The notes under the pieces were generated by a model that saw only the letters and a list, made by a program, of their open reading frames with translations, made no database searches and had not been told where the DNA came from. From Roseobacter fucihabitans (lineage in GTDB: Bacteria; Pseudomonadota; Alphaproteobacteria; Rhodobacterales; Rhodobacteraceae), in contig NZ_CP143426.1 in the NCBI RefSeq assembly GCF_014337925.2, positions 1-64,000 on the forward strand: DNA of 64,000 bases. Direction: 5' to 3'. Shown in pieces: positions 11,351 through 58,613 of this stretch (position 1 is the first letter of the stretch; each line of letters begins with the position of its first letter). The translations under genes were made by a program, and so were the position numbers.

Positions 11351-11364
11351 ATTTGGGAATCATT

Positions 11365-16788: not shown

Positions 16789-17209
16789 GAGCGTTTTTGC
16801 GTCTCATGGCTCAATTCACAACTAATAATTACCGTTCTACACGAAAGCAGACCTTGCGTTGCAAATGCCCAATGGCCGCTTCGTTTAAGGTTTTTCGATG
16901 CGGGCCTGTGCGCGACTTTTCGGCTTAGTGTGAGTGTGGCCCGCGTTGGGAAACATGACTAGGAGGAAGCCGTGGGGTCTGGGCGCGCGCTATGGGGGAA
17001 GCGCCAATCAGGTTCAGCCGAGGATGCTGCGAGATGGAATTGCTTGGCATCATTTCTCATGGATTGGTGCCCTTGAGCGTCTTTTTCGGAGTGGCTTGGC
17101 ACCAGTTTGGGCGCATTGGACGCCATCAATTTTCCTTCACCCAAGCCGATACCAGCCCAAAACGCGATGCAGTTCGGGGAATGGTCTTTGATTGATGACG
17201 TGCGCCCCG

Positions 17210-18403: not shown

Positions 18404-18413
18404 CCGGCCTCGG

Positions 18414-19301: not shown

Positions 19302-19437
19302 GGGGAACTCCTGTCCGTTGATTGAGAAGCCTCAATCGTCAGACAGGTTCGTTAAATCTCAAAATCCACACGGCTAAAGTCAGCGCACAACACCCGCAAC
19401 AATCGCCATTGCCGCGGCAGCGGCTTCGTCCAAGTCC

Positions 19438-19778
19438 GCAGAGCCGACCTAGCTCTCAACAGAACCAACGGCAGCTTTGAGTCAGCAGGGAAGGTAGTCT
19501 GTTGAAGGGTGGCAGTATTTTTACCACTTGATCAAATTCGCATAAGGTGCATTATGTTAAATTTTGTAACCATATAATGTCTGCCATGTAGATCTTAGAC
19601 GTTAACAATGGTGTAACCTAAACAGGTGTTCGCTTTTTTTAGATATCTCGATTGTTTATAAGTGCCAAACAGATTCCCGTTTGCAACAGCTAGTTATGCT
19701 CTATGCAATGACTGCTCCGTGAAAAGCCCAGCCTTTAAGGGGCGCGGCCTTCCGGTATCTATGTTGGGTTGCACACTA
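19438..19778. other. Gene-free stretch after IS91 copy A
   Basis: About 340 bases, AT-rich around 19510-19670. No gene, tRNA or terminator stands out. It separates the IS91 element from the 3' end of the oxidoreductase gene on the minus strand. Confidence 0.4.
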
Positions 19779-20702
19779 CTATGGAATGGTGACGACGATT
19801 TTTCCGACTGCGTGACCGTCTTTCAGGGACTCGTACGCGGCGACTACATCCTCCATCTTGTAGGTGCTATCAATCACGGTTTTGACGTGACCATTTTCGA
19901 TCAACTTGCCAAGGTCAGCCAACATCGCACCGTCGGGTTCCATAAAGAACCACTCGAACCGCACGTCGTGGTCCGGCGCAAGATTATCGGTATCTTGCCC
20001 TTTGATTGACACCAGCGTGCCGCCTTTTTTGAGAACTTTGAACGACCGGTTGAGCGTTTCGCCCCCTACCATATCAAACACGATATCATAGTCTGACAAT
20101 TCGTTTTCAAAGGTTTGCTTTTTGTAGTCTATCACGACATCTGCCCCAAGCTTACGAACAAGATCAACGTTGCGCGCGCTGCATGTGGTCGCGACATGTG
20201 CGCCGAAATGTTTCGCGATCTGAATTGCCAAGGTGCCGACACCGCCCGATCCAGCATGGATCAGAACCTTATCGCCTTCTTTCATCTGCGCTTTGGCAAT
20301 AAGCGCCTGCCAAGCCGTGAGGCCCGCCAACGGAACCGATGCAGCTTCTGCGTGACTAATGTTACTGGGTTTCAGCGCCAACTCACTTGCTTTTACCCGC
20401 GCGACTTGCGCGATGGCGCCTGCATCTTGCTGGTTGGCACGGGCATAGACCGCATCGCCAACGTCAAAGCCAGTCACATCTTTACCGATCTCAGTAATTT
20501 CACCCGCTACGTCAAAGCCCATGACATGGGGGAATTCCAACGGGATGTTATCTTTCATCGCGCCTGATTGCAGGATGTAGTCGATTGGGTTGATGCTTGC
20601 AGCATGCACGTTGATGAGGACTGAATCGTCACTCAGTGTAGGAGCATCAATGTCAGCGATTTCGATTTCGGTGTCGTAGTCACGGAAAATAGCGGCTTTC
20701 AT
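19779..20702 (-). CDS. NADP-dependent zinc-free quinone oxidoreductase (MDR family)
   Basis: 307 residues. GroES-like N-terminal fold (MKAAIFRDYDTEIEIADID, FPHVMGFDVAGEITEIGKDV) and a Rossmann domain with the AGSGGVGTLAIQIAKHFGA nucleotide-binding loop. It lacks the structural zinc cysteines and fits the quinone oxidoreductase branch of medium-chain reductases, a cytoplasmic family reducing quinones or enones. It is first in a minus-strand run with the NmrA-like pseudogene and a semialdehyde dehydrogenase upstream. Intact. Confidence 0.9.
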   Translation of the reverse strand: MKAAIFRDYDTEIEIADIDAPTLSDDSVLINVHAASINPIDYILQSGAMKDNIPLEFPHVMGFDVAGEITEIGKDVTGFDVGDAVYARANQQDAGAIAQVARVKASELALKPSNISHAEAASVPLAGLTAWQALIAKAQMKEGDKVLIHAGSGGVGTLAIQIAKHFGAHVATTCSARNVDLVRKLGADVVIDYKKQTFENELSDYDIVFDMVGGETLNRSFKVLKKGGTLVSIKGQDTDNLAPDHDVRFEWFFMEPDGAMLADLGKLIENGHVKTVIDSTYKMEDVVAAYESLKDGHAVGKIVVTIP

Positions 20703-20779
20703 GGCTCTAAGTCCTTTGTTGTTGGGGTAAATTCATAGGTCGTCACAGACGTTTGGCCATGCAAATGACACATGTGTAG

Positions 20780-21377
20780 CTAGACCGATTGCATAAGCAT
20801 CGTTTTGCCCGCCCATTCGGCACTGATGGCGGCATCGGCCAAGGCCTTAGCTACATCACCGCGGGCTGCTTTAGCTTTCGGGTCAACTTTGTCACCAAAA
20901 ACCATGTCCCCATCGCCATTGTCATCCGTCAGTGCGACAGGACGCAGAATGGCATATGTCATGCCAGAGTTTTTCACATGTTCGTCTGCGTCATGTTTAG
21001 CCTGCAGATAATGTCCCATGTCCGTGTCGGGATCGGGATTTTCCGCGCCCACACTGCTTAGCATGACGAACCGTGACACACCCGCTTTTGCCGCTTGATC
21101 CACTAAGTCTATCGCCCCATCACGGTCAATTTTATCAGTCATTTCAGCGCTCGTATCGCCGCCAGATCCAGCTGCAAAGATAACGACATCGCACCCATCA
21201 CAGACCCCGTCTTGCAAATCAGCTAGATCGCCCATCCGCTGTTCAGACTGTACTGGCAGTTGACTGGTGTCAGAGCTTTCGCGCACCAAAAGCAACCGTA
21301 TCGTGCCCCCGTGCGACGAGTTCGTTCATAAGACGTGTTCCGGTGTTCCCAGTGGCTCCGGCGACGAGGATTTTCAT
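20780..21377 (-). pseudogene. NmrA/SDR-like NAD(P)-binding protein, frameshifted
   Basis: The ATG at 21377 starts MKILVAGATGNTGTRLMNEL, a clear GxxGxxG dinucleotide-binding motif. After about 27 codons the frame breaks at a GCTTTTGG run (about 21295); removing one T joins it to VRESSDTSQLPVQSEQ and the rest (CDVVIFAAGSGGDT, VSRFVMLSSVGAENP, YAILRPVALTDD). The NmrA-like family binds NAD(P) and acts as reductase or redox sensor. Without correction only an N-terminally truncated protein could be made. A sequencing error in the T run is possible. Confidence 0.82.
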
Positions 21378-21452
21378 AGTCATGTCCTTTGTGTTGTGGT
21401 CAGTAAGTATTCGTTTCCAGCTATCGTTCTTGCGACTGGCAAACTTGACCTC

Positions 21453-22829
21453 TTAGGGCAGGTAGATCGCTTTGGTATTGACAAATTCCTTCATGCCAAA
21501 GCCGCCGTGTTCGCGCCCAAAGCCGGAATCTTTCACGCCACCGAACGGCATGTTCGGATCAGCAGCCCCAAACGAATTGATACGGACCATGCCGGTATCA
21601 AAGTGGTCTCGGGCCAGCTGCAGTGCTTTGTCTTCGTCCTTGCTAAAGATACCGCCGCCTAGTCCGTACCGACTATCGTTTGCGATGCGCATTGCGTCCG
21701 CGTCGTCTTTTGCCTTGATGATTGCGGCGACTGGACCGAAGATTTCGTCGTCATAGGCTGGTGTACCCGGTTGGCAATTTGCGAGCACGGTTGCTGGATA
21801 ATAGTAACCGGTGCGGTCCGGTGCGGAACCGCCACACAGCACCTCTGCGCCACCTTCGACGCTTTTGCTGACTTGTTCAGATATTGTATCAAACTGCTCA
21901 GCGCTGGACAGCGGGCCAAGCTGGGTGTCTTCGGCTGTCGGGTCACCCAGGCGAATGGCCTTCATCTGTTCGACAAAGGCGCTGGTGAATGCGTCATAGA
22001 CCGCTTCTGTCACGACGAAGCGTTTGGCTGACACGCATGTTTCACTGTTGTTATACAATCGGCCTTGGACGCAAGTTTTCACAGCCAGTTCAATGTCTGC
22101 GTCTTCGAGCACCAGATAGGCGTCATTCGATCCCAGCTCTAGAACGGACTTCTTCAGGTTTTTCGTGGCGACCTGACCAATATGCCGCCCGCCGCCATCA
22201 CTGCCGGTCATGGTGACGCCACGCACAAGCTTGTTTTCGATCATTGCGTCAGACGTATCGTGATCCACAATGACAACGTCGAACAATCCTTCTGGCAGCC
22301 CGGCTTTCATACAAACGTCGCGCAGCATGAGGCCACTGCCTGTACAGATTGAGGCATGCTTGAGGATTACACCATTGCCAGCCATCAGATTTGACGCGAG
22401 CACGCGCACTGGTTGGTAGACCGGAAAATTCCATGGTTGGATGCTGTAAATGACACCGATCGGCGCGTAGGTGATCATACCACGCTTTTCGCCACCGCTG
22501 TGTTTGCGATCCTCATCGGCCAGAATTTCTGGACCATGTTCAGCTGTATATTCAAATATCTGTGCGCAAAGTTTGACTTCGGTCTGACCGTCACGCAGCA
22601 GCTTGCCGGTTTCTTCTGTCATCAAGGTCGCAAAGGCATCCGCATTGTCGCGCAGCGCTGCGGCGATCTTGCGCAGATAGGGTGCACGGTCGGCATGGCT
22701 TTTGGTTCGCCACTCAAGAAACGCCTCATGACATTTTTCGATTTTGTCGAAAGCAACGTCTGACGTCATGACATCATAGGTTGCGATTGTTTCTTCGGTT
22801 GCGGGGTTGGTTGTCGATATATGTGTCAT
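21453..22829 (-). CDS. NAD(P)-dependent succinate-semialdehyde dehydrogenase-like ALDH
   Basis: About 458 residues from ATG 22829. ALDH features: PWNFPVYQPVRVLASNLMAGN, the general-base Glu in LELGSNDAYLVL, catalytic Cys in NNSETCVSAKRFVV, EIFGPVAAI and PFGGVKDSGFGREHG near the end. It oxidises an aldehyde (succinate semialdehyde is the usual substrate of this branch) to the acid. Same strand as the two oxidoreductase genes downstream, suggesting a reactive-aldehyde/redox unit. Intact. Confidence 0.92.
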   Translation of the reverse strand: MTHISTTNPATEETIATYDVMTSDVAFDKIEKCHEAFLEWRTKSHADRAPYLRKIAAALRDNADAFATLMTEETGKLLRDGQTEVKLCAQIFEYTAEHGPEILADEDRKHSGGEKRGMITYAPIGVIYSIQPWNFPVYQPVRVLASNLMAGNGVILKHASICTGSGLMLRDVCMKAGLPEGLFDVVIVDHDTSDAMIENKLVRGVTMTGSDGGGRHIGQVATKNLKKSVLELGSNDAYLVLEDADIELAVKTCVQGRLYNNSETCVSAKRFVVTEAVYDAFTSAFVEQMKAIRLGDPTAEDTQLGPLSSAEQFDTISEQVSKSVEGGAEVLCGGSAPDRTGYYYPATVLANCQPGTPAYDDEIFGPVAAIIKAKDDADAMRIANDSRYGLGGGIFSKDEDKALQLARDHFDTGMVRINSFGAADPNMPFGGVKDSGFGREHGGFGMKEFVNTKAIYLP

Positions 22830-23031
22830 GTGAGGCACCTTTTATGGGACGTTGCGTATCCAACCCATTGCGACCCGCATGGTTCCGCCAGCGCGATGCA
22901 TGACCGCGCGTCATCGAAGGTCATCCGGTGGTTTTGATGGAAAGACAACGCAGGTGACGGTCGAACGAACCCGACATAGTGGAATGTGCCAACCTGCCCT
23001 GCTCTGGGGTTAACTTGTCCCGGTTTAGTAG

Positions 23032-23511
23032 TCAGTCAGCATCCGGTCGGTCGTCTGCCCCGCGGTGCTCCATAAACCTACTTGCCGCGAGCAAGCTTGC
23101 CGCGAGTATCGCACAAATGACTGCAAACAGTCCCAAACCAACACCGGACGCAAGTCCAAGCGCGCCAGCGACCCAAAGGCTTGCTGCTGTCGCCATGCCG
23201 CCGACATTTTTGTCGCCTTGTATGATCGCGCCCGCACCCAAGAAACCAAGTCCACCAATAAGCCCTTGAATAACACGCGTTGGGTCGGCTGCCAGTTCTG
23301 CGGTTCCCATGCTACGCGACATTTCAATCGCAGTGATCGTAAAAATAGCAGAGCCGAGCGACACCATCATATAGGTGCGCACACCAACCCGTCGTCGTCT
23401 GACTTCACGGTCGAGCCCAAGGATGCCACCCGCCACCAGCGCAAAGATGAGCCGCATTAACCAGTCTGCTTCCGTCATACCAATATCCAATGCGTTGAAT
23501 ATCTCGTTCAT
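23032..23511 (-). CDS. MgtC/SapB-family membrane protein
   Basis: 159 residues with about four or five membrane segments. Conserved MgtC core: GLDREVRRRRVGVRTYMMVSLG and IQGLIGGLGFLGAGAIIQG. It lacks the extra C-terminal cytoplasmic domain of full MgtC, as many MgtC/SapB proteins do. The family is tied to growth at low magnesium and membrane homeostasis. Its upstream region is now filled by IS3 copy 2, 121 bases before the start. Confidence 0.9.
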   Translation of the reverse strand: MNEIFNALDIGMTEADWLMRLIFALVAGGILGLDREVRRRRVGVRTYMMVSLGSAIFTITAIEMSRSMGTAELAADPTRVIQGLIGGLGFLGAGAIIQGDKNVGGMATAASLWVAGALGLASGVGLGLFAVICAILAASLLAASRFMEHRGADDRPDAD

Positions 23512-23669
23512 GACTGCTCCTCTGGGTTACGTGACGCGGCGTCTTAATTGCGACTGTGTATCGAAGCGGTCGCGCGCACTAGGGAAAACTGGTTCTTGGC
23601 TTTCGCGTGTGGCCTATCCCTATAACCGATCTGGTCTTGTCGCGGTTGCGTTCCGGTCTCTCAACTCAT

Positions 23670-24527
23670 TTAGGCAGCCTTTCGTTCGAAGGCCAAGGGG
23701 CTTTTGCCACCTAATGACGAGTGCCGCCGTCGTGGATTGTAGAACCCATTGATATACTGGAAAATCGCCCCTTCGGCTTTACGCCTGGTTTCCCAGCGGT
23801 TGCGCCAAATCAGCTCTGCCTTGAGTGATTTGAAGAACGTTTCAACCATGGAATTGTCGTAGCAGTTTCCCTTACCGCTCATCGAAACTTGGAAGCCGTG
23901 TTTAGACAGCCGTTTCTGATAGTCGCCTGAACAATATTGCGACCCGCGATCCGTATGATGCATGCAGCCCTTCGGCGGTTGCCGCAGTGCCACAGCCATA
24001 TCCAATGCTCGGATCGCCAGATCCCGCTTCATACGATTGCTAACCGCCCAACCGATGACACGACGGGAATACAAATCAAGGATCACTGCCAGATACAACC
24101 AGCCCTCACTGGTCCAGATGTAGGAAATGTCATCGGCCCACTTTTGGTTTGGACCATCTGCAAAGAAGTCCTGGCCCAGCAAGTTAGGGGCGATGTTAAA
24201 CGCATGATTGCTGTCGGTCGTAACCTTGTATTTCTGGGTCCTGATGATTTTGATGCTATTCTCCCGCATTAAGCGGCCCACGCGCCGGTGCCCAACTTGC
24301 AGACCCAGTTCTTGCAGTTCTTCGGTCATGCGAGGCCCGCCATAGCTTTGCAGGCTTAAGCGGTGCTGTTCGCGGATATGCGCCAGGATCACCATATCGT
24401 CGCGCTGTCGCTGGCTCATCGGGCGGCTTCGCCACGCGCGAAATCCTCGCGACGTAACCTGCATGACGCGGCAAAGAAATTCGACAGGCCATTCTTCTTT
24501 CCAGGCGTCGATAAAGGCGAACCTCAC
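23670..24527 (-). CDS. IS3-family OrfB, DDE transposase (copy 2)
   Basis: 285 residues, same as copy 1 except K for R in SLKAELIW. All DDE residues present (WADDISYIW, HHTDRGSQY, DNSMVETFF), so presumably active when fused to OrfA by frameshifting. Confidence 0.95.
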   Translation of the reverse strand: MRFAFIDAWKEEWPVEFLCRVMQVTSRGFRAWRSRPMSQRQRDDMVILAHIREQHRLSLQSYGGPRMTEELQELGLQVGHRRVGRLMRENSIKIIRTQKYKVTTDSNHAFNIAPNLLGQDFFADGPNQKWADDISYIWTSEGWLYLAVILDLYSRRVIGWAVSNRMKRDLAIRALDMAVALRQPPKGCMHHTDRGSQYCSGDYQKRLSKHGFQVSMSGKGNCYDNSMVETFFKSLKAELIWRNRWETRRKAEGAIFQYINGFYNPRRRHSSLGGKSPLAFERKAA

Positions 24528-24799
24528 CGACTTTGGCCTGCAAAGAAGATTGCCGCTTTTTTTAACACTTCCCTCTCCTCGCGAAGCAACCGAACTTCCT
24601 TGCGAAGGCGTTCGTTCTCTTTCTCGACATCCTCGTGAGGACCCGACATCAGGTTGTCATGCTGATGCTTTTGAACCCACTTGTTCAACGTCGAAAGCCC
24701 AACTCCTAAATCCGCTGCCGCTTGCGGTCGTGTCAGCCCACTGGTCGTTGCGATGCGTACTGCATCAAGACGAAACTCGTCTGTGTATCTCGGTGCCAT
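24524..24799 (-). CDS. IS3-family OrfA (copy 2)
   Basis: 91-residue HTH and coiled-coil protein, identical to copies 1 and 3, with the same A7G slippery run ahead of orfB. Confidence 0.93.
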   Translation of the reverse strand: MAPRYTDEFRLDAVRIATTSGLTRPQAAADLGVGLSTLNKWVQKHQHDNLMSGPHEDVEKENERLRKEVRLLREEREVLKKAAIFFAGQSR

Positions 24800-46986: not shown

Positions 46987-47337
46987 ATGGCCCAATCTAT
47001 CAAGCTGTCCGATGATGTTATGTCAGTCGTGCGCCGTGAGTCCGGTTTGCAGAGCCGGTCCGTTGCGGGGCAAATCACCCATTGGATCAACATCGGTCGC
47101 GCCATCGAGCAATCGAGCGCGTTTGACTATCAACATATTAATGCCGCTCTTGCAGGGGAGTTGTCTCCGGATGAGTTGGGCGCTGAAGAGCAAGAAGTCT
47201 GGTTTGCGCAGTTTGCTGACGAAATGACCGCGCCGTCTGATCAAGAAGAAGCGTTTTTTGCGCAACGTCGTCAGCTGGGCCGTGGTGTTGGGCTGAATGA
47301 CAAAGGCGAATTGGTTTACCCTGAGGCCGCAGCCTGA
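46987..47337 (+). CDS. ParD-like antitoxin
   Basis: 116 residues. N-terminal MAQSIKLSDDVMSVVRRESGLQSRSVAGQITHWINIGRAIE is a ribbon-helix-helix-like DNA-binding part of the ParD-like (TA_antitoxin) family; the C-terminal half (about 60-116) is acidic and would wrap the toxin. Ends 2 bases before the zeta toxin gene. GGATGGAG precedes the ATG. The operon likely represses itself. Confidence 0.82.
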   Translation: MAQSIKLSDDVMSVVRRESGLQSRSVAGQITHWINIGRAIEQSSAFDYQHINAALAGELSPDELGAEEQEVWFAQFADEMTAPSDQEEAFFAQRRQLGRGVGLNDKGELVYPEAAA

Positions 47338-47339
47338 GC

Positions 47340-47939
47340 GTGGCCCCTGCCCCGCGTCCAACCCTTGTGATGCTGGCAGGTCCAAACGGATCAGGCAAAT
47401 CCACGCTTTATGAGACGCGGATCGCGCAAAATTTTGCCGTCCCGTTCATCAACGCGGACATCATCCAGCGCGATGAACTGAAGGACGGTGATGTGAATGC
47501 TGCTTATAAAGCGGCACAAATCGCCACCGAGCGCCGTGCATCCCTGATGGTGGATCGCAAGAGCTTTGCCACGGAAACCGTGTTCTCTCATCCCTCAAAG
47601 CTTGAGTTGATCACCCAAGCCAAAACCCTTGGGTATCGCGTCATGATGTTTCATATCTCCGTCGCGCATCCTGACCTATCCGTCGCCCGTGTTGGTGAGC
47701 GGGTCATTGAGGGCGGTCATCCCGTACCCGAAGAGAAAATCAGAAATCGATATGATCGCTCCGGCCCCCTGATCCGCCAAGCCATTCTGGCCAGCGATAT
47801 CGGTCACGTCTTTGACAATTCCCAGCTGAACCAACCTCCGGTGCGGGCGTTGTCATTCACAAACGGAACCCTCACCTTTGCCTTGCCGCAGCTTCCCGAT
47901 TGGGTACTCGATCTCTACGCGGATGACTTAGTTCTGTAG
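47340..47939 (+). CDS. Zeta-toxin-family P-loop kinase
   Basis: 199 residues from GTG 47340. Walker A LAGPNGSGKSTLYE, INADIIQRDEL, KSFATETVFSHPSKLELI and RVGERVIEGGHPVPEEKIRNRYDRS match the zeta/COG4185 family, which phosphorylates UDP-activated amino sugars and blocks cell-wall synthesis. It pairs with a ParD-like antitoxin rather than epsilon. Likely addiction module for the plasmid. Confidence 0.88.
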   Translation: MAPAPRPTLVMLAGPNGSGKSTLYETRIAQNFAVPFINADIIQRDELKDGDVNAAYKAAQIATERRASLMVDRKSFATETVFSHPSKLELITQAKTLGYRVMMFHISVAHPDLSVARVGERVIEGGHPVPEEKIRNRYDRSGPLIRQAILASDIGHVFDNSQLNQPPVRALSFTNGTLTFALPQLPDWVLDLYADDLVL

Positions 47940-48215: not shown

Positions 48216-49739
48216 CTATTCTTGGTCCTTCAACGCATCTGCCAGAAACTTGGCAAATGGCACGATGTCCTCACGAACGCTCGCAGCTTCCAGCGCAGCC
48301 ATGTAAGCGGCGCGATTGTCGACTTTGATCACCGTCCATGGTTGTCCTGCTGCAGCCAACATCACATTCATCAAGAACCGAGCCGTACGGCCGTTCCCAT
48401 CTAAGAACGGATGTATGAATACAAAGATGAAATGACCAAGCACCACACGAACCGCGGGATTGGTTTCTGCCTGCAGAAGTTCGAAAAACACAGGCATACA
48501 TTCGCGGACGGCTTCGACGTTCATCGGCACATGCTGAGAGCCGCGAATGTAGACTGGCGCGTTTCGATAGCCCGCAAGCTGCGCCGCCTTCAATATGCCC
48601 GCCCCCACAGATGGTGTGAACAACGCCCGGTACCATGCTGTCAGATCACGCTCTGCGACGTCCCCAACATCTTCACCTTCGAGAACGGCGCGCACGCTCT
48701 CACGTACGCTTTGAAACGCCTCCCAATAGCCGCGTGCCGCAAGTGCATCTTTCATCGCAAGATCTTCTTTGTCCCCATCCGGGTCCCAACCTCCTGAGCG
48801 CACTTTCTCAATCAGTTCGGGTGAGACCCGATAGCCCTCGATGGACAGCGAATGATAGGCATCGGTCACATAGATTTCATCCATCGCTGTCAGATAGGCT
48901 TCGGCATCATTTGTGACCGGCTGAGCAGCAGGAAAATGCGCAATCACTGTTTCGCGCATCGCTTCCCACTTCAACCGGATGCGGTGTACATGCGGTGACG
49001 TTTCCCGCCCGGCATTGAGGACAGTCACGCTTTCCGAAAACGGATCGCTCATCCGCACATCATGTGACGCCGCTTTCATAGATGAGACGATTTCGTCGGC
49101 AATTCTCGTCTTGCCAATACTTCGAAACGCCCCTGCCAATCGACCTGCTGCGCTCGTGTGCCCGCCCTCCAGAAGCCGGGCCAGGAGGGCAGAAGCATCT
49201 GGTATAATCGCTAGGATCGTCCGCGCATCTGTCGCGTTCTGTTTGAAGAAGTTTTCAGGAACGAGGATCAATGCCTCTTCTATTGAGAACAGGCGTAACC
49301 CATCTTTGACGACAAGCGCGTCTCCCTTCGCAAACGTCGCACGGGTCTCGAAGATAGAGGTCTTGTGTGGGAAGTCCGTCTTCATGTTCCCTGCCTTGGG
49401 TGCGCGGACGAGCAGCTGCACCGGGACTGCCGTATCGCCTGCATGCAACTTCAGGGATTGCTCGGGTGACAACGACCAATCTTCGCCAAACCGATCCGAG
49501 AGATATTGGGCACAGAACGCCCAGAAAGAAGTGTACCAAGCGGTGCTTTCACCAACGCGTTCGTCAGGCCGGGACATGATGTACCAGCCCTTGATCACTT
49601 CCTTGATAAATCCAGCCTTAAGAAGCCGTTCCCTATGGGTCCGGGTTAAGTCACTAGATCGAATAGCTATGACACCTTTTGACTGTAGAACATGCAGGAC
49701 CTCTAAAGATTGCGCTAGCTTCTCCGCTGCGATCACCAT
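48216..49739 (-). CDS. Fic-domain protein with an N-terminal AbiEi/HTH-like region
   Basis: 507 residues. N-terminal winged-helix-like part (about 1-60: LAQSLEVLHVLQSKGVIAIR, TRTHRERLLKAGFIKEVIKGWYIMSRP), a middle region, and a Fic core (about 280-480) with HPFLDGNGRTARFLMNVML. A possible inhibitory motif SLSIEG lies upstream of it (class II arrangement). Fic enzymes AMPylate proteins; the N-terminal region resembles abortive-infection AbiEi-like modules. Divergent from nothing; AT-rich DNA precedes it. Confidence 0.88.
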   Translation of the reverse strand: MVIAAEKLAQSLEVLHVLQSKGVIAIRSSDLTRTHRERLLKAGFIKEVIKGWYIMSRPDERVGESTAWYTSFWAFCAQYLSDRFGEDWSLSPEQSLKLHAGDTAVPVQLLVRAPKAGNMKTDFPHKTSIFETRATFAKGDALVVKDGLRLFSIEEALILVPENFFKQNATDARTILAIIPDASALLARLLEGGHTSAAGRLAGAFRSIGKTRIADEIVSSMKAASHDVRMSDPFSESVTVLNAGRETSPHVHRIRLKWEAMRETVIAHFPAAQPVTNDAEAYLTAMDEIYVTDAYHSLSIEGYRVSPELIEKVRSGGWDPDGDKEDLAMKDALAARGYWEAFQSVRESVRAVLEGEDVGDVAERDLTAWYRALFTPSVGAGILKAAQLAGYRNAPVYIRGSQHVPMNVEAVRECMPVFFELLQAETNPAVRVVLGHFIFVFIHPFLDGNGRTARFLMNVMLAAAGQPWTVIKVDNRAAYMAALEAASVREDIVPFAKFLADALKDQE

Positions 49740-50010: not shown

Positions 50011-50231
50011 TTAATCCTCTATGCCGCTTACCCCCGCATCCTCCAACTGCTCTCTGTCCGGCAGATCGCGCAAGCTTTCGAGATCAAACACAACGAGGAA
50101 CTTCTCCGTCGTCACGAAGGTATACGGCGCACCTCTGCGGGGACTGCGCGGCCCGGTAGCAATGAGATCCCGCGCATGCAGCCGCCCAATCAAATCACGG
50201 CTGATCTCCTTGCCAAAGATGTCTTTCAACC
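50011..50231 (-). pseudogene. 3' fragment of an scpB-like gene
   Basis: About 72 codons in frame: KDIFGKEISRDLIGRLHARD, then TGPRSPRRGAPYTFVTT and LESLRDLPDREQLEDAG, matching the C-terminal winged helix of ScpB (partner of SMC in chromosome condensation). The 5' part is gone: the reading frame runs into the left end of the tni element at about 50231. The missing part is not seen at the other end of that element. Confidence 0.75.
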
Positions 50232-50235
50232 TGTC

Positions 50236-50302
50236 ATGGTAACGTTATTCGCCGGACTCTTTCGTGTTGACTACTATTTTGGTCGACTTGGTAACGCCAT
50301 TC
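50236..50302. repeat. Left-end repeats of the tni element
   Basis: Two boxes, ATGGTAACGTTATTC (50236-50250) and TTGGTAACGCCATTC (50288-50302), 52 bases apart. They are inverted relative to the right-end boxes. The inner box touches the tniQ stop codon. Probable TniA binding sites. Confidence 0.8.
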
Positions 50303-50971
50303 ATGAGATACTCACAGACTGCAGACGGGTGGTTTCCAAGATCATTTCTGCGCATCGCAGTAGTTCCCCTCGGTCCGCGGTTTCGCCGAGTTGGCTAATC
50401 GCCTGCTTCGCTGCAGCCAGATATTCGGACCTTGCGACGTTGGGACTGGCAGACTTGTACGCGGGGGATTGATCGCTCTTTTTCCCGGCATCTTGGCTCT
50501 GATAGTTAGGCAAGCTGCCAGCGAGCCGTATCACTTGAGCCAGAAGTTTCCGCTTATATGGAAAGGCAATGTGAAGTCTTGTTCCAGCAGTCAGATCATT
50601 GCGCACGGCGAATGCAACCCCGAGCATGGGACGGAACAATCCAAGATGCAGAGCTTCCAGCATTGCAAAGCGCTGACTGAGGTCTCTTGAAAACAGCGTA
50701 GCGTGACGAAGTTCTGGTGCGAGAATTTGGACAACCTGTATGGTCAAATCAACGCGCCGACCGGATTGTTGGTGTCCTCGCTGATAGGCTTGCGTCAGTC
50801 GCGCGGCTCCCAAGAGCGCGCGTGTTCTTGACCGAGGAGGAAATCTGATTGTGTCTTTTTGGTCGGTGCTTACAGGCAGCAACTCGGTAAGCGTGCGGCC
50901 ACGCTGCTCTGACGCCTCATAGAGTGGGTTGATAGTGTCCACTAACGATAGTGGACATCTTGAGGGCAGAT

Positions 50972-51364
50972 ATGGCGGGTAAGAAGGGTCAAAAGAAGCG
51001 GTTTTGGTCTGATGAGGAGAAGGTGTCGATCTGTGCGCAAACATGTGCGCCGGGGGTATCGGTAGCGCAGGTCGCGCGGCGGTACGCGATGAACACCAAC
51101 CTGATCCACAAATGGCTACGTGATCCCAAGTTTGCACCTGATCCGGAGATCATCGAAGACGAGGTTGGTGAAGCGCCATGTTTTCTGCCTGTGGAGATTG
51201 TTGACCGGCCAGGTGCTGAAGAACCGGTTCCCGCGCTTGCGGCAAATGCCACATCCGGCCATAGCGCGATTGAGATCGACATCGCGGGCGGTCATCAGCT
51301 GAGGATTGTCGGTAGCTACGATCCCGAAGCATTGGCTCGGCTCATCCGAGGTCTTTCTGCATGA
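50972..51364 (+). CDS. tnpA: IS66 TnpA (HTH accessory protein)
   Basis: 130 residues from ATG 50972 (TTGAGGG upstream). [44 protein letters not shown]; ends with [12 protein letters not shown]. Its TGA overlaps the tnpB ATG by four bases (ATGA). Confidence 0.92.
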
Positions 51365-51708
51365 TCCCTGTCCCGGCGAACACGCGCGTCTGGCTGGCTG
51401 CCGGTGTGACCGACATGCGTCGTGGGTTCACGACGTTGGCTGCGCAGGCTGAACAGACATTGAAGCAAGATCCGTTTACCGGGCATCTGTTTGTCTTTCG
51501 TGGACGGCGAGGTGATCTGATCAAGATTATCTGGTGGGACGGGCAAGGTGCATGTCTGTTCAGCAAGCGCCTGGAGAAAGGTCGGTTTGTTTGGCCGTCG
51601 GCGAAAGAGGGCAAGATCGCTCTGACCGCGGCCCAGTTGGCGATGCTGCTCGAAGGGATCGATTGGCGTTTACCACAACGCAGCTGGACACCGCTCAAGG
51701 CAGGATAA
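51361..51708 (+). CDS. tnpB: IS66 TnpB accessory protein
   Basis: 115 residues: [51 protein letters not shown] are the IS66 Orf2 signature. Required with TnpA and TnpC for transposition; biochemical role unclear. Confidence 0.95.
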
Positions 51709-51757
51709 ATGCGCGTGTGGGATTCCCGCCGGATCGTTGTTTTGCTATAGTCTGGCC

Positions 51758-53257
51758 ATGCTGGACGTCGATAAATCACTGCCGAAAGACCCTGATGAAC
51801 TCAGGCAGTTCACGGCGATTTTGCTGGCCGAGGTGAGGTCGCAGGCTGTTTTGATCGAGAAGTTGCGGCATCAATTGGCCGGTCAACGCCAATGCCGCTT
51901 TGGGTCGTCATCAGAAAGCATTGAACAACTACAACTGGCCTTGGAAACAAGCGAGATCGCGGTTGCCAAGATGACCGTGAAGCTACGCCTTCCCGATGAG
52001 GAGCCAAGAGACAAACCAAAACGCCGCCCGATCCCCGATCACATCCCGCGCATGGAAGTTGAGCTGACCACCGGTGATGATGATTGCGCTCAGTGCGGTG
52101 GTGGCTTGCGCCGTCTGGGCGAGGATGTGACCGAAGAGCTTGAGTATGTTCCTGGACGCTTCATCGTGAACCGCATTGTGCGTCCACGCTTTGCATGTTC
52201 TGGCTGTGAGGCCTTCACACAAGCAGCGTTACCTTCGCGCCCAATCGAACGGGGCCGTCCCGGCCCGGGCCTGCTGGCCCATGTTCTGGTCAACAAATAC
52301 GCTGACCACCTGCCGCTGTATCGCCAAAGCGGCATCTTCGAGCGCGACGGGATCGACATTGACCGTTCAACGCTGGCCGACTGGGTTGGCAAATCCACAG
52401 CTCTGTTGGAACCACTGGCTGATGCCATCGGGCGGCATGTGTTGGCTGGACAGGCTATCTTTGCAGACGACACGCCGGTAAAGATGTTGGCCCCCGGCAC
52501 TGGCAAAACAGCGACAGCGCGTTTGTGGGCTTACGGTCGAGATGAACGGCCCTGGGGCGGCGATGCCCCTCCCGCCAGTTGGTATCAGTTCTCGCCGGAT
52601 CGCAAAGGGCAGCACCCCAAGGATCATCTCGCAAAATATCGGGGCTGGATGCACGCGGACGGCTATGCCGGGTTCGAAGATCTCTATCGTTCCGGCGACA
52701 TCCACGAGGTCGCCTGTATGGCGCATGTCAGACGCAAGTTCGTAGATGTTCATCGCGCCCAAGGCTCTGCCATCGCCAATGAGGCCATCCAGCGCATCGC
52801 GCAGCTCTACGCGGTCGAGAAAGAGGCACGCGGGTCACCACCAGATCGACGCGCCGGTCTCCGACAGGCGCATGCAAAACCGATCTTCGATGATCTGGAA
52901 GTCTGGCTACACACCCAACTCCCAAGTATCTCTGGCAAATCGCCGCTTGCGGGTGCGATCCGCTACGCTCTGACGCGCATGGCGCGGCTCCGGCCATATC
53001 TCGACCACGGCATCCTGGAGTTGGACAACAACACCGCCGAACGGGCCATGCGGTCTGTTGCAATCGGGCGCAAAAACTACCTGTTCGTTGGATCACAAAC
53101 CGGCGGCCGCGCTGCCGCCATCGCCTACACCTTGATCGAAACGGCCAAACTGAACCGCATCGATCCGCAGGCTTGGCTGGCCGACACCTTGGCACGCATC
53201 CCAGACTACAAAATCAACCGCGTCGATGACCTGCTGCCATGGAAAACTGCCTCATAG
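51758..53257 (+). CDS. tnpC: IS66 TnpC, DDE transposase
   Basis: 499 residues from ATG 51758. N-terminal coiled-coil leader, zinc-finger region (CAQCGGGLRRLGE, RPRFACSGCEA), then DDE core: FADDTPVKMLAPGTG, MHADGYAGFEDLY, CMAHVRRKFVDVH and LELDNNTAERAMRSVAIGRKNYLF, ending LPWKTAS. Full length, probably active. Confidence 0.95.
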   Translation: MLDVDKSLPKDPDELRQFTAILLAEVRSQAVLIEKLRHQLAGQRQCRFGSSSESIEQLQLALETSEIAVAKMTVKLRLPDEEPRDKPKRRPIPDHIPRMEVELTTGDDDCAQCGGGLRRLGEDVTEELEYVPGRFIVNRIVRPRFACSGCEAFTQAALPSRPIERGRPGPGLLAHVLVNKYADHLPLYRQSGIFERDGIDIDRSTLADWVGKSTALLEPLADAIGRHVLAGQAIFADDTPVKMLAPGTGKTATARLWAYGRDERPWGGDAPPASWYQFSPDRKGQHPKDHLAKYRGWMHADGYAGFEDLYRSGDIHEVACMAHVRRKFVDVHRAQGSAIANEAIQRIAQLYAVEKEARGSPPDRRAGLRQAHAKPIFDDLEVWLHTQLPSISGKSPLAGAIRYALTRMARLRPYLDHGILELDNNTAERAMRSVAIGRKNYLFVGSQTGGRAAAIAYTLIETAKLNRIDPQAWLADTLARIPDYKINRVDDLLPWKTAS

Positions 53258-53657
53258 GGCGGTCAGACCGGACGCTTACGCAACTCGAGACCGCATGAAT
53301 TGCATATAGTAGACCAAGCATAGCGCCAATGGCGCAACGAAACCCCAGGCGTTTCGTTGTTGCATGTCGAGCAAACCTGAAAGTCCGACCGGGAAATGCA
53401 CTCTACGGGAAACCTTGGGCAGCGCCTGATCAGCATGCTGTTCATAGCACTCGGCGACAGCCGCGTTATTGTGCCGAACCGTTCAAGGTTCACGCCCTGC
53501 AGTTCGCTTCTCGTTTCCGGCAGACGCTCGTCAGCCAGGCCCAAGTAACCGCAGAACTCCTGCACGGAACAGTAGTTGGCAACTGCAAGGCGGGCAATCC
53601 AACTTGAAAGCAATTCATCTCGAAGCGGAGCCGGGCGCTTCGGCAGCGGTCGGATGG

Positions 53658-54524
53658 TCACTGAAAAGCCGGCAGTGGTTGCCGCCGGATGGTCCAGCTA
53701 TGTTTAGCCCAGACCGGCTGCCAAGTTTGGATGGCCTCATCGGTAATCCGTTCCTCGCCAGTCTCGATTGCCTCGATGGCCAACGCCTTGATCATGGTGA
53801 ACACGCGTGACGTGACGCCGCCTGTAACACCCAGGATAGTTCGGAGTGATTGGACGTTGAGCCCAGATCCGCGTTCCAACTGCATGGCTGAAATCAGAGT
53901 CTGGACAAGACGTGAAAACTCAACGTCATCTTCCCAGAACGGTAGAAAATGTTCATCAAGCCTACGGGCCAGTTGCTCGTCGCCACGAATGGCATCGACG
54001 GCCTCGTTGACGCCGAACACGACGAGAGCCACGCAAAGATCGTTGGCGAGGAAACGGAGCATGTTGAGGAAGCGCCGCTGTTCCCGATAACTGCCCGCCA
54101 GCAAGTTATGAACCTCGTCGATCATAATCATCTTGAGGCCCATGTCCCGCAAATGACTAAGGGCGCGCACCTCTAGTTCGGACACAGTGTGCCTGCCCCA
54201 CATCGGGGCCCCAATCGACGCGAGAATGTGCTGATAGAACCGTCGTTCATCTGGCGCAGGTGGTGCTTGCAACAGCAAGATTGGCGTTCGCGTGACACCT
54301 ATCTCGGATGCATATTGTGACGGATACAGACTCTCCATCCGCTTTGCGACCATGGTCTTGCCGATCCCGGAACTGCCATAAACCATGAGCCCTGGCATCC
54401 GGGATTGCCTAGGCATTTCCATAAGAGAAATCAATCTATTGAGAACAATTGTCGCGCGATCAAATGCAATCCAACGATCGCTACGAATGAGGTCAATTCT
54501 TTCGTTTATATCCATCAAAGTCAT
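53658..54524 (-). CDS. tniB: TniB, AAA+ ATPase of the transposon
   Basis: About 288 residues from ATG 54524 (MTLMDINERIDLIRSDRWIA; ATG 54515 is an alternative). Walker A MVYGSSGIGKTMVAKR, Walker B LKMIMIDEVHNLLAGS, VVFGVNEAVDAIRGDEQLARR as sensor region. TniB (TnsC-like) forms ATP filaments linking TniQ-marked DNA to the TniA transposase. It overlaps tniA upstream by 32 bases and tniQ downstream by 4, so the three are co-translated. Confidence 0.93.
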   Translation of the reverse strand: MTLMDINERIDLIRSDRWIAFDRATIVLNRLISLMEMPRQSRMPGLMVYGSSGIGKTMVAKRMESLYPSQYASEIGVTRTPILLLQAPPAPDERRFYQHILASIGAPMWGRHTVSELEVRALSHLRDMGLKMIMIDEVHNLLAGSYREQRRFLNMLRFLANDLCVALVVFGVNEAVDAIRGDEQLARRLDEHFLPFWEDDVEFSRLVQTLISAMQLERGSGLNVQSLRTILGVTGGVTSRVFTMIKALAIEAIETGEERITDEAIQTWQPVWAKHSWTIRRQPLPAFQ

Positions 54525-56127
54525 CAATCGGGTAAGTGGGAAGGTCAGGGTTGTTAGTATCAATTGCAAACATCTCGCGTGAGGGATCACGCTTTGGCTT
54601 GTCGCTCGGAAGCCGGGCCTGGCGTTCACCTTCCAGCCGGGCCGTCAACGTTTGTTGCCGTGCCGCGTATGCGATACGGCGCTGTTCTTCGATAATCCGA
54701 AACAGCATCGCCTCCGGAATCGTTCCTCCATGTCGTTCGTGAAAAATAGCTCTGGCGCGTCGCGATTCCCAAAGTGAAATCCGGGGCCGTGACAGATCCT
54801 TGTATCGCGCAGCAACGGCGCGACCATCATCCGTGATGACCCAAATCTGAGACATGTCGCGGGGATCATATTTGACCAAGACTTTCCCTGCCCCGCGACC
54901 GATCATCGGACCGAACGCGTCGCTCCAATAGCCAATCGAAAACAAATTGATCCCCGTGCGCGCCAACTGCCGACGCTCGGAGGGAAGAAAACTGATCCGG
55001 AACGCGTCAGTGTCCACAACTTGTCTGCCAGCGACGTCACCGCCGAGATCGGCCCAAGCGGCCAACGGCACCCGCCCTAGCCCACTGTGCCGGGTATTGT
55101 GATATCGGCAAATCTCCAAATGCAGCCAGTCCTCGAACTCCTCAAGCGTCAACGCTGCCTTGCCCGTGCTGTCATACTCACCCTTGTCTTTTGGCGAGGA
55201 CTGCGTTGTTCCTGGAAGCACATGAACCGCTCCCATGGTCGTCCCAATCAGGCGCTCAATATGGCCCCCATAATGCACACGACCTGGTGGCCGGTACTCA
55301 ATCACAATACCCCATTCAGCACAGGCCGACTGGAAGGCGTCGCTACGAAAGTCTCGCCCATTATCAACGTGAATAGCCTGCGGGATGCCGGATGCTGGCC
55401 AATACAGGGCTTCCATTGACTCTGGCGTGCGGATCGACTTCGGTCTCACGCAATGATCTAGACACAGACCAATGGATAGAACCGTTGGGGCGTCAAAACT
55501 GACGTAAACACCTAGTACGACCCGGGTTGCGATATCAACCGCAAGCGTTAACCATGGTCGTGCTAGCGGTTTGCGGTCCGCCTGGTCTACAAGAATGATA
55601 TCGGCCAAGGTGTGGTCTATCTGGACGATCCCCAAAGGACGCTCCACGTCCAAGCCCCCTGCCCTCGCCTCGAATACCTGCCTCGCTGCTTTCGCGCCCT
55701 TCCGTTTCCGCAGCACCTCACGCTGATCCATTGCATCGAGCCTTGCTTTGACGGTCTGTCGTGATGGAGGCTGAAAACCCTTGGCATGGCATTCCACGCG
55801 AATCTCGCCCACGATCCTCCTAAAGCTAGGCCTCTCCAAGACGAGGTAGCGCTTGCGGAGGACTTGATCGATCACATCTTCAACTTGCTGATCCAGACAC
55901 GACATTCCGCGCTTGGGCCCGCTGCGTTTGGGCAACAATGCACTCACGCGCCCGTCGTTCTCACGCAAAAGACCCAAAAGGCGCCAGGCCGTACTCCTGG
56001 AAACGCCAAGTTGCGCCGCGGCGGACTCCAATGGCAGCCCAATCTCTTTCCCTTCAGTCTGCAATAATAACAAAGGTCGAAGAACCTCCGCCCTTTTTAT
56101 TGCAACTCCTTGGGCATCATCTTCCAA
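54493..56127 (-). CDS. tniA: TniA, DDE transposase (TnsB-like)
   Basis: 544 residues. HTH domains at the N-terminus (LGVSRSTAWRLLGLLRENDG, FQPPSRQTVKARLDAMDQRE), an rve catalytic core with D (GIVQIDHTLADIILVD), D (AIHVDNGRDFRSDAF) and E (RVHYGGHIERLIGTTMG), then a Mu-type C-terminal beta domain (KVLVKYDPRDMSQIWVI). Cuts and joins transposon ends; its binding sites are probably the repeats upstream. Intact. Confidence 0.93.
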   Translation of the reverse strand: MEDDAQGVAIKRAEVLRPLLLLQTEGKEIGLPLESAAAQLGVSRSTAWRLLGLLRENDGRVSALLPKRSGPKRGMSCLDQQVEDVIDQVLRKRYLVLERPSFRRIVGEIRVECHAKGFQPPSRQTVKARLDAMDQREVLRKRKGAKAARQVFEARAGGLDVERPLGIVQIDHTLADIILVDQADRKPLARPWLTLAVDIATRVVLGVYVSFDAPTVLSIGLCLDHCVRPKSIRTPESMEALYWPASGIPQAIHVDNGRDFRSDAFQSACAEWGIVIEYRPPGRVHYGGHIERLIGTTMGAVHVLPGTTQSSPKDKGEYDSTGKAALTLEEFEDWLHLEICRYHNTRHSGLGRVPLAAWADLGGDVAGRQVVDTDAFRISFLPSERRQLARTGINLFSIGYWSDAFGPMIGRGAGKVLVKYDPRDMSQIWVITDDGRAVAARYKDLSRPRISLWESRRARAIFHERHGGTIPEAMLFRIIEEQRRIAYAARQQTLTARLEGERQARLPSDKPKRDPSREMFAIDTNNPDLPTYPIDDFDGYKRKN

Positions 56128-56170
56128 ACTTCACACCGTCAAATGTTATCCACAAGTCGGACAGTCCGAC

Positions 56171-56225
56171 GAATTACGTTACCATCTCACGAATTAGGTT
56201 ACCATCCTATGAATGACGTTACCAA
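56171..56225. repeat. Right-end iterated repeats of the tni element
   Basis: Three boxes exactly 20 bp apart: GAATTACGTTACCAT (56171), GAATTAGGTTACCAT (56191), GAATGACGTTACCAA (56211). Together with the inverted copies at 50236-50302 they mark transposon ends and probable TniA sites. The region between tniA and the boxes (56128-56170) has no gene. Confidence 0.85.
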
Positions 56226-56521
56226 TGGCCAATTGTAATTAAACAATAAAATCAACCGCGAGTCCTATGAATAGGATGACCACGACACCAGCTTTGCAGG
56301 GATAGGCGTCGCTTTTTAAGAACCCGACTCGCATAAGAGCAAGGCGCTGCCGTTCGCTGCGACAGCCATTAACTTACAGAGTGCGGGACTTGGACGAAGC
56401 CGCTGCCGCGGCAATGGCGATTGTTGCGGGTGTTGTGCGCTGACTTTAGCCGTGTGGATTTTGAGATTTAACGAACCTGTCTGACGATTGAGGCTTCTCA
56501 ATCAACGGACAGGAGTTCCCC

Positions 56522-57409
56522 ATGACACATGAGAAGATGACCCCGCTTCGGGAGCGGATGATGGAAGACATGCGCATCCACGGGATGGGCGACAAGGCTC
56601 AGAAGGCGCACATTCGGGCGATCAAACACTTTTCTGGTTTTCTTGGGCGCTCGCCCGATACCGCCACGCCAGATGATCTTCGGGCGTATCAGTTGCATAT
56701 GACCGATACGGAAGTGACACCGCCCACATTCAACGCGCGGATCATGGCGCTGCGGTTCCTGTTCGGTACAACCTGCAACCGTGAAGACATGAAGAAGTAC
56801 ATGCAGTTCCGCACGCAGCCACGCAGGCTGCCAACAGTGCTGAGTATCGAAGATGTTTCGGAGCTTCTTGCTGCGGCACCCGGCCCGGGTCTGAAGTATC
56901 GGGCGGCGCTAAGTATTTCCTATGGTGCGGGTCTGCGGGCATCTGAGGTTTGCAATCTCAAGGTCAGCGATATCGATAGTGACCGGATGTTAATCCATGT
57001 CGATGAAGGCAAGGGGCGCAAGGACCGCAAGGTCATGCTGTCACCCGATCTCTTGGACTTGTTGCGTGACTATTGGTGCGAAGCGCGCCCCGAGGGATGG
57101 CTCTTTCCGGGCAAGCCGAAGATCAATCCGGTCACGTCGAGGCAATTGGGTCGGGCGTTCAACTCGGCCAAACATCTGGTTGGTATTTCAAAGCCAGCCA
57201 CGCTGCATACCTTGCGGCACAGCTTTGCCACCCATCTTATGGAGGCTGGAACGGATGTGCGGGTGATTCAGGTCTTACTGGGTCACGCCAAGCTGAGCAC
57301 GACAGCGCGTTATACCCATGTTGCGACTAAAACAATCCGGGATACGCCCAGCCCGTTTGAAGCTCTCAAAAGGCTGAACGTACAGACCCGCAAGCGCAGA
57401 CGGGAATAA
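56522..57409 (+). CDS. Tyrosine recombinase of IS91-type element (copy B)
   Basis: 295 residues, identical to copy A. Catalytic R (GLRASEV), HTLRHSFATHLM and terminal LSTTARYTH. GGACAGGAG precedes the ATG. Confidence 0.93.
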   Translation: MTHEKMTPLRERMMEDMRIHGMGDKAQKAHIRAIKHFSGFLGRSPDTATPDDLRAYQLHMTDTEVTPPTFNARIMALRFLFGTTCNREDMKKYMQFRTQPRRLPTVLSIEDVSELLAAAPGPGLKYRAALSISYGAGLRASEVCNLKVSDIDSDRMLIHVDEGKGRKDRKVMLSPDLLDLLRDYWCEARPEGWLFPGKPKINPVTSRQLGRAFNSAKHLVGISKPATLHTLRHSFATHLMEAGTDVRVIQVLLGHAKLSTTARYTHVATKTIRDTPSPFEALKRLNVQTRKRRRE

Positions 57410-57419
57410 CCGAGGCCGG

Positions 57420-58613
57420 GTGCCCCGGCCAGAACTGGAGATTGCGGATATTTTCCGAAAGTTTGGTCCTGCGTGGCGGCAGGTCAATAAGGGCCATGTC
57501 AACCTGTCCCAGCTCAAAGTGATGTCCTCAATCGAAGCCTGCCGAACTGAGGCGCTCGGCGGGCATGTGGCGGCCTGTACCAAATGCAACCACATGCACA
57601 TTGCGTACAATAGCTGCAAGAACCGGCACTGTCCCAAGTGCCAGAGTCCGGCCGCGCGCGACTGGATGGAAGCGCGCGCCGAGGATCTGCTGCCCGTGGA
57701 ATATTTCCATGTCGTCTTCACGTTGCCTGCGCAGATCGCTCGTATCGCCTACTGGAACAAGAAGGCCGTCTATGGCCTACTGTTCAAAGCGTCTGCGCAA
57801 ACGGTGATGACAATTGCAGCCGATCCCAAACGGCTCGGCGCGCGGGTTGGCATGACCAGCGTCCTTCATACGTGGGGGTCGGCACTTACGCACCATCCCC
57901 ATGTCCACATGATTGTCCCAGGCGGCGGTCTGTCGTCAGATGGCAAGAGATGGATCGCTTGCAAGCCGGGGTTCTTTCTACATGTGCGGGTGTTGTCACG
58001 ACTGTTCCGGCGGCTGTTTATCGAAGGGCTGCTTGCCCTGCACCGCGCAGGTGAACTGTCCTTCTTCGGCGATCTGAACGGGCTGTCGGACCCACAGGCC
58101 TTCGCCGCATATCTCGCCCCACTGCGCAAAACCAAATGGGTGGTCTATGCCAAACCGCCATTCGGCGGGCCCGAAGCCGTGCTCGCCTATCTCAGCCGCT
58201 ACACGCACCGCATCGCCATCTCAAACAGCCGTTTGATCAGTGCCGATGCCAACACCGTTGCGTTCCGATGGAAAGATTATCGCTTCAAATCTGGTGACGG
58301 GCGATCCGTCATGCACCTTTCCACATCAGAGTTCATCCGCCGCTTTCTGATCCATGTGCTACCGGACCGGTTCCACCGCATCCGCCATTATGGCCTGCTC
58401 GCCAGTTCGACCCGTAAGGCTAACATCGCAAAAGCTCGGACCTTACTTGGCGCACAAACCGCCAAACAGGATGACCCACCAGTCGCCGAGGTCATCCCGC
58501 TCACACTGCGAGACCCATGCCCCGGCTGCGGCGGGAAAATGCGCATCATCGAGACCTTCCGGCGGGGCCAAAGACCACAATCCCGCGCACCACCCAGAAA
58601 GGCCGCAGCATGA
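57420..58613 (+). CDS. IS91-type Y2 HUH transposase (copy B)
   Basis: 397 residues from GTG, identical to copy A: zinc-binding cysteines, HHPHVHMIV HUH motif, YLSRY tyrosine pair, CPGCGGKMRIIETF tail. Confidence 0.95.
   Translation: MPRPELEIADIFRKFGPAWRQVNKGHVNLSQLKVMSSIEACRTEALGGHVAACTKCNHMHIAYNSCKNRHCPKCQSPAARDWMEARAEDLLPVEYFHVVFTLPAQIARIAYWNKKAVYGLLFKASAQTVMTIAADPKRLGARVGMTSVLHTWGSALTHHPHVHMIVPGGGLSSDGKRWIACKPGFFLHVRVLSRLFRRLFIEGLLALHRAGELSFFGDLNGLSDPQAFAAYLAPLRKTKWVVYAKPPFGGPEAVLAYLSRYTHRIAISNSRLISADANTVAFRWKDYRFKSGDGRSVMHLSTSEFIRRFLIHVLPDRFHRIRHYGLLASSTRKANIAKARTLLGAQTAKQDDPPVAEVIPLTLRDPCPGCGGKMRIIETFRRGQRPQSRAPPRKAAA

Follow-up and report, generated by a model that had tools for sequence, protein, structure and literature searches.

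A cargo-free, insertion-sequence-like Tn7/Tn5053 relative in Roseobacter fucihabitans and its copies in related bacteria

Tn5053 and Tn402 (Tn5090) share with the element described here the gene order tniA-tniB-tniQ, TGTC ends and the lack of TnsA, and a cointegrate route of movement is expected; however, our element lacks tniR/res and any mer or integron cargo, and it is 3.65 kb long compared with 7.4 kb for Tn402 in R751. The IS6/IS26 family also consists of short, cargo-free elements, replicative as ours is proposed to be, whose copies, like those of the family described here, often lack their own duplications, but these use an unrelated single-gene DDE transposase and have no AAA+ protein or TniQ. 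Subterminal repeats of ~20 bp, as in our element, are a further feature of the Tn5053/Tn402 family as reported in PMC8649781, according to which 96% of 6,549 delimited Tn7-like transposons bear cargo. Tn7 relatives that lack cargo have been described before: Tn5469, which comes from a cyanobacterium (another host phylum) and is likened to our element by its description, is presented in PMC11406308 as a cargo-free Tn7-like element with one TniQ. The same paper assigns TnsB, TnsC and TniQ without TnsA or resolvase to CAST type V-K, as in our element, and reports cointegrates for it (PMC11406308), whereas our element has no Cas12k, guide RNA or cargo. No report of this element family was found in the literature searched (titles and abstract openings, among the matches listed).

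Limits and gene content of the element

The window, that is the whole 64-kb stretch of R. fucihabitans DNA that was analysed, contains the following features.

50017..50231, minus strand: 3' portion of an scpB gene of the plasmid type (SMC_ScpB 1.6e-9; residues 136-200 of 203), flank outside the element
50232..56287, minus strand: whole Tn7-like element, ends TGTCATGG... and ...GACCACGACA (copy-identity edges, end scan, IS66 arithmetic)
50232..50250, minus strand: outer terminal repeat, tniQ end (repeat scan and end comparison with relatives)
50289..50302, minus strand: inner copy of the repeat at the tniQ end; it overlaps the stop codon of tniQ
50301..50879, minus strand: 3' part of tniQ, aligning to residues 141-331 of 331 in a relative
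50887..53279, plus strand: IS66 family insertion in tniQ, 2393 bp, with 8-bp direct repeats GCAACTCG
53263..53661, minus strand: 5' part of tniQ, severed by IS66 (PF06527 1.2e-13)
53658..54521, minus strand: tniB, AAA+ ATPase (PF05621 4.6e-60)
54493..56127, minus strand: tniA, DDE transposase (Pfam Mu-transpos_C and rve), start codon uncertain
56146..56154, plus strand: TTATCCACA, which matches the DnaA-box word exactly and lies between tniA and the repeat array, the single exact copy in the 64-kb window
56165..56224, plus strand: tandem array of three 20-bp repeats, to which TniA may bind (repeat scan; lag-20 self-match in relatives)
56263..56287, minus strand: outer terminal repeat, tniA end (by-eye alignment with TGTCATGGTCACGTAATTCGTGAGACTC of relatives)

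Element limits were observed directly as identity edges between copies whose interiors are the same but whose flanks are not, namely a shared stretch of 3649 bp at 100% (L031/L032) and one of 3664-3678 bp at 99.9-100% (L036/L037/L038), each in differing surroundings. The termini in the window, TGTCA...CGACA at 50232-56287, enclose 6056 bp with IS66 and 3655 bp once IS66 and one 8-bp repeat are subtracted, in agreement with the ~3.6 kb originally predicted. The original prediction had placed the limits at 50231-56227; the left one is at 50232, and the right one moved to 56287, as judged from the ends of relatives, with an outer terminal repeat that had been overlooked. This repeat reads ...GGATGACCACGACA and stops at 56287, 63 bp beyond the array. 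The repeats themselves were confirmed as first described, with three right-hand copies at exact 20-bp spacing and two inverted copies at the tniQ side (50237-50250 and 50289-50302), the inner one on the tniQ stop, and GAATNACGTTACCA at 0-1 mismatch occurs only at those five sites in the whole 64 kb.

All three predicted transposition genes have Pfam matches, that of TniQ lying in its N-terminal part; a Pfam search with the C-terminal part (50301-50879) gave no match. The TniA profile matched TnsB structures, among them chain 7svw and others, which we take to be from CAST type V-K, and D171, D255 and E291, likely the catalytic triad judging from the alignment, are invariant across 8 aligned TniA. 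The 5' part of tniQ aligns to residues 16-139 of 331 in an uninterrupted relative, and the gene is uninterrupted in L031 and L036; because IS66 cuts tniQ, the window copy is probably inactive. No TnsA or resolvase gene was present among the ORFs of the window element (ORF list, Pfam), and the tni genes and IS66 fill it, as had been proposed. The locus has the Tn7-like traits of a TnsB/TniA-type DDE transposase with a Mu C-terminal domain, an AAA+ regulator (TnsC/TniB) together with a TniQ that IS66 has broken here, and TGT...ACA ends with arrays of ~20-bp repeats. The reading of the window as holding a cargo-free, insertion-sequence-like Tn7/Tn5053 relative with the gene order tniA-tniB-tniQ is supported.

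Copies in related genomes

Within the close clade we collected 65 copies, of which 51 had both ends and 14 were incomplete or interrupted. Fixed length and gene content are direct observations here: 49 of the 51 complete copies measure 3645-3677 bp and leave little space for a tniR resolvase next to tniABQ, the two exceptions being the window copy (IS66) and L078 (rearranged, with extra transposases). Additional DNA within copies consists of insertion sequences, no cargo lies between the limits proposed earlier and the true ends in relatives, and four draft contigs (L054, L061, L063 and L068) each equal one element to within one base. In relatives the repeats persist at the tni ends, and self-matching of the tniA end is best at lag 20 in 50/51 complete elements. 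Neither of the two outcomes named beforehand as refuting the prediction was observed. As in insertion sequences, only transposition genes lie between conserved ends and several copies occur per strain among relatives; the window genome has a single TniA match, the window copy. Mixed elements such as L033 and L057 combine a tniA end of one type with a tniQ end of another.

Neighbouring groups B, C and D are also short. A scan of 26 distant loci for terminal repeats gave convincing short elements in L087, L088, L090, L093 and L104 and unclear or no terminal repeats in the remaining 21. Among 394 genomes of the bacterial family, 7 contain an exact tniA-end word characteristic of the second subclade, and a search of 192 other genomes gave TniA relatives at 64% identity or more in 4. 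In a FastTree phylogeny of TniA, which carried long-branch warnings, Tn402 TniA falls outside the window's 52-row clade; cargo-free groups sit inside this clade, and the tree leaves cargo-bearing and cargo-free states unordered, so that the suggested 'ancestral' form was not upheld.

Insertion sites and plasmid scars

A 5-bp duplication of its own flanked no copy in 45 flank pairs, the window copy included, and shifted offsets or other lengths gave, for 5 bp, at most 1/39 copies at the best offset. Duplications matched across copies of one strain were observed directly in 3 of 24 ordered pairs, a number reached in 5 of 20,000 random draws; this test was restricted to same-strain pairs from six strains, each having two or more complete copies, and no match occurred in S. 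alexandrii (0/6 ordered pairs) or in Phaeobacter G2, EhC04 and Yoonia (0/2 each). The 5-bp duplications sought under the original prediction were thus present across copies in relatives and absent around individual copies. Matches across all strains (7 seen, 1.5 expected with equal base use) were left out of the evidence, one being the same-strain pair L037/L036. In group B, GACGG matches across two copies on one plasmid, and L135 of group C is flanked by GATTC on either side when one of its ends is shifted two bases outward, in which case this relative would count as a simple insertion. The sole resolvase-bearing Tn402 comparator, R751, also lacks a 5-bp repeat at its ends, and therefore missing repeats alone prove little.

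Joined 'empty' sites were likewise observed directly, one over 1200/1200 bp (100% in two plasmids, 99.9% in a third), another over 1000/1000 bp (100% in three plasmids) and a joined IS6 site over 481 bp at 99.8%. Plasmid pTHAF37_f of Sulfitobacter sp. THAF37 matches pDSM14862_e to 24600 and resumes at 55874, with a single element copy in between and 31.3 kb absent; pTHAF37_a carries 30.7 kb of the missing piece adjoining another element copy, and since this piece is itself split, further events occurred. For the right flank of the window element no partner was found in the plasmid collection, the matches listed starting at least 62 bases in, before IS91-type genes.

Proposed replicative movement, its alternatives and a possible role of DnaA

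Taken together, these comparisons make it quite probable that the element is a cargo-free, insertion-sequence-like Tn7 relative that moves replicatively without TnsA or resolvase. TniA would bind the repeat arrays at both element ends and connect the two 3' ends to the target at positions staggered by 5 bp, with TniB predicted to activate TniA and TniQ to direct it loosely. Because there is no TnsA for the second-strand cut and no resolvase, replication would yield a cointegrate with another molecule or a deletion or inversion within the same molecule, and host recombination alone would sort out the products; the putative signs of cointegrates here are historical traces. Such an element would therefore be recognised by plasmids that have fused, lost segments or been reassorted, and not by neat insertions. 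Counting against the replicative route, homologous recombination between ordinary insertions could separate duplications too.

Simple insertions, by cut-and-paste or resolved, with flanks later shuffled by homologous recombination among 3.65-kb copies, are a possible, if rather unlikely, alternative. The multiple copies in a strain and the mixed-end elements would suit it, recombination between two insertions would also give the THAF37 pattern, and L135 may be a plain insertion, but none of the 45 flank pairs keeps its own repeat, not even that of the window copy, which is alone in its genome, and the element has no TnsA or resolvase gene. That the element is instead a remnant of a larger Tn7-like transposon that lost its cargo in this lineage is very improbable: despite the prevalence of cargo in delimited Tn7-like transposons (PMC8649781), the uniform short length of 49 of the 51 complete clade copies and the short groups B, C and D already contradict it for the sampled family.

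It is also unlikely that the element targets scpB, or the module that scpB forms with DUF1403 and a tyrosine recombinase on RepABC-type plasmids, in the way that Tn5053 targets res sites. The window element and L039, which are distinct, both interrupt scpB in identical orientation at points separated by 9 bp, and other ends fall inside DUF1403 or no more than 20 bp from it (L032, L072), or equally close to a gene for a tyrosine recombinase (L037, L055; 2/49 copies for the kinds searched); however, in 43 of 49 copies neither end comes this close to a module gene. The predicted stop of scpB at the left edge held, its 3' part adjoining 50232, and the right flank showed no scpB; its role as a conserved target did not hold, and a fixed attachment site there was ruled out, because only 2/49 copies (window, L039) end in it.

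Of 37 distinct elements, 34 contain an exact DnaA-box word on the inner side of the repeat array at the tniA end, and a weaker counterpart lies at the tniQ end; at up to one mismatch the word is absent from 250 bp of each end in four group B/C/D elements and Tn402. We tentatively suggest that elements of this clade could be insertion sequences acting as replicon-fusion engines, with transposition tied to the host replication initiator DnaA. If so, DnaA would time tniA expression or help load replication onto the transposition intermediate.

The clade holds a fixed three-gene, 3.65-kb form, a minimal Tn7-like system with no TnsA, resolvase, CRISPR or cargo, whose history is legible as exact scars and as intact empty sites in other plasmids. 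It provides a small system for asking about targeting by TniQ alone, the fate of unresolved cointegrates and any part played by DnaA. In related marine bacteria, plasmids appear to have been cut and re-joined by copies of the element, which offers a concrete mechanism for the mosaic plasmids of roseobacters.

Limits and surroundings of the element

In the window, the outermost bases of the element were placed by carrying over the edges of its relatives. Two Pukyongiella plasmids have 3649 bp in common at 100% identity and differ outside it, three Sulfitobacter plasmids have 3664-3678 bp in common at 99.9-100%, and the edge common to both sets of copies is TGTCA...TGACA.

50232-56287: element limits
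50.2-56.3 kb, minus strand: tniA, tniB and tniQ, with IS66 within tniQ
tniA end: outer terminal repeat, spacer of about 35-40 bp, three tandem 20-bp repeats
tniQ end: one outer repeat and one inner repeat
56146-56154: exact TTATCCACA, between the transposase repeats and tniA

The five repeats named in the original prediction are real, being the sole matches to the core with 0-1 mismatch in 64 kb, but its right limit, set at the repeat array, falls short, since the relatives place an outer terminal repeat beyond the array that ends at 56287. Because IS66 accounts for 2393 bp and is flanked by perfect 8-bp repeats, the element proper is 3655 bp. The window sits on an 81-kb contig (C4), and a search of the 4.85-Mb genome for TniA matched the window copy only (E <= 0.001).

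To the left lie a ParD-like antitoxin gene followed by a zeta-toxin-like kinase gene (46987-47939), a probable toxin-antitoxin pair, and, left of the scpB remnant, a gene for a Fic family protein of 507 aa (48216-49739). Fic genes also occur less than 4 kb from elements at loci L036, L039 and L045. An IS91-type unit of tyrosine recombinase and Y2 transposase (56522-58613) begins 235 bp right of the element.

Fixed length and content of the relatives

Close relatives of the element are found on Rhodobacterales plasmids. A scan of genome contigs yielded 76 loci, of which 45, together with 19 plasmid copies and the window, form a close-clade sample of 65 copies; the remaining 31 loci, more distant or fragmentary, were left out. 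The sample includes near-identical copies, and its complete copies represent 37 distinct end pairs. Both ends are present in 51 of the 65 copies, and 49 of these 51 measure 3645-3677 bp, the exceptions being the window, with its IS66, and L078, an internally deleted copy in which another 2.6 kb leads to a second tniQ end, this extra stretch coding for transposases of the IS110, IS240 and other types. In the remaining 14, contig edges or deletions cut the copy, one end is missing, or the element is interrupted; among these, L052 has a Mutator-type transposase close to its tniA end. No genes other than transposases were found inside the limits of the 65 copies (flanks of truncated copies left out), which, with the uniform length, bears out the proposal that the element is cargo-free. 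Four contigs consist, to within one base, of a single element, as expected from assembly collapse of multicopy elements. Two copies (L033, L057) are hybrids, each with its two ends from different subclades, which points to recombination among elements.

Neighbouring groups with TniA 43-48% identical are also short (3593 bp in L132/L133, about 3.7 kb in L134/L135 of group C and about 3505 bp in L130/L136). A FastTree analysis of 94 TniA rows, which carried a long-branch warning, places the window in a 42-row clade (100) nested in a 52-row clade (97), with Tn402 TniA outside the latter. L134 carries a tandem pair of identical 3.7-kb group C elements (6026-13472), with the outer repeat of one missing at the junction.

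A DnaA-box word at the tniA end

Counted from the tniA end, the word TTATCCACA, the DnaA-box consensus, occurs exactly at position 133-134 in 33 of the 37 distinct elements and at position 71 in one; within one mismatch, it is present in the first 220 bp of this end in all 37, although these counts are not independent because the elements are related. It is the most frequent 9-mer of the tniA end (34; the next, overlapping, 24) and is commoner than the transposase repeats, which vary between subclades. Only 0.35% of shuffled ends contained it, and no exact copy was present in 126,939 bp of element interiors. At the tniQ end, a one-mismatch form occupies a fixed place in 25 of 37 distinct elements, and the exact word in none. 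The word was absent from four tested elements of groups B, C and D, which are neighbouring cargo-free groups, and from Tn402. At the tniA end it may have a promoter role.

Target sites and mode of movement

The tniQ end in the window falls within the 3' portion of a plasmid-type scpB, the other side being unrelated, and L039 (Phaeobacter sp. G2) is inserted 9 bp from this site in the same orientation. These observations agree with the suggestion that scpB is a possible target. Only 2 of 49 copies end there, however, and 6 of 49 have an end inside an scpB, DUF1403 or tyrosine recombinase gene or no more than 20 bp from one. At most, scpB is one preferred site among others. A palindromic word, TGTCC[A/G]ATAAGTTTNNNTTATCGGAC, a candidate recombination site, adjoins a tyrosine recombinase gene, and mostly also DUF1403, on several plasmids:

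L032, 15802-15827
L035, 15508-15533
L038, 19063-19088
L039, 21679-21704
L040, 17064-17089
L045, 13657-13682
L046, 12209-12234

Group C ends lie 46-47 bp from this word in L134 (13494-13541) and L135 (5079-5126), which are from the same strain, and in L035 (near 15560) a related tniABQ element ends at a distance of about 28 bp. Targeting of the palindromic site by group C in the manner of res hunters is possible.

The 5-bp target duplications expected of such an element were absent around single copies (0 of 45 distinct flank pairs) but appeared across copies of the same strain in 3 of 24 pairs (two in Sulfitobacter sp. THAF37, one in Pukyongiella); at least three such matches arose by chance in 5 of 20,000 random draws. 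When the flanks of two THAF37 copies were joined, minus one 5-bp repeat, the first joined site was found intact elsewhere over 1200 bp (100% in NZ_CP084956 and NZ_CP139702; 99.9% in NZ_CP136685), as was the second over 1000 bp (100% in NZ_CP084956, NZ_CP139702 and NZ_CP045387). Plasmid pDSM14862_e (NZ_CP084956) holds both. It matches pTHAF37_f in three blocks (11807-24600, 55874-75754 and 78248-91915), and between the first two pTHAF37_f has one element copy in place of 31.3 kb. The missing piece is found in pTHAF37_a as a 30.7-kb block (24596-55254) abutting another element copy, and its final 0.6 kb abuts a third.

A single replicative event within one molecule would yield this pattern, and so would recombination between two insertions; either way, the piece must later have integrated into plasmid a. 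With neither TnsA nor resolvase, the element would be expected to form cointegrates, as indicated by PMC11406308 and PMC8649781. Against reading the missing repeats as a product of cointegrates, Tn402 in R751 likewise lacks a 5-bp repeat, and the group C copy L135 may be a plain insertion.

Tn7 relatives without cargo were already known; in the literature searched (titles and beginnings of abstracts), no description was found of the minimal form of fixed length, of the scars in plasmids or of the DnaA-box word. With its tniQ cut by IS66, the window copy is probably inactive. The element is nevertheless a real, cargo-free, Tn7-like member of a roseobacter family whose past mobility has left clear traces.
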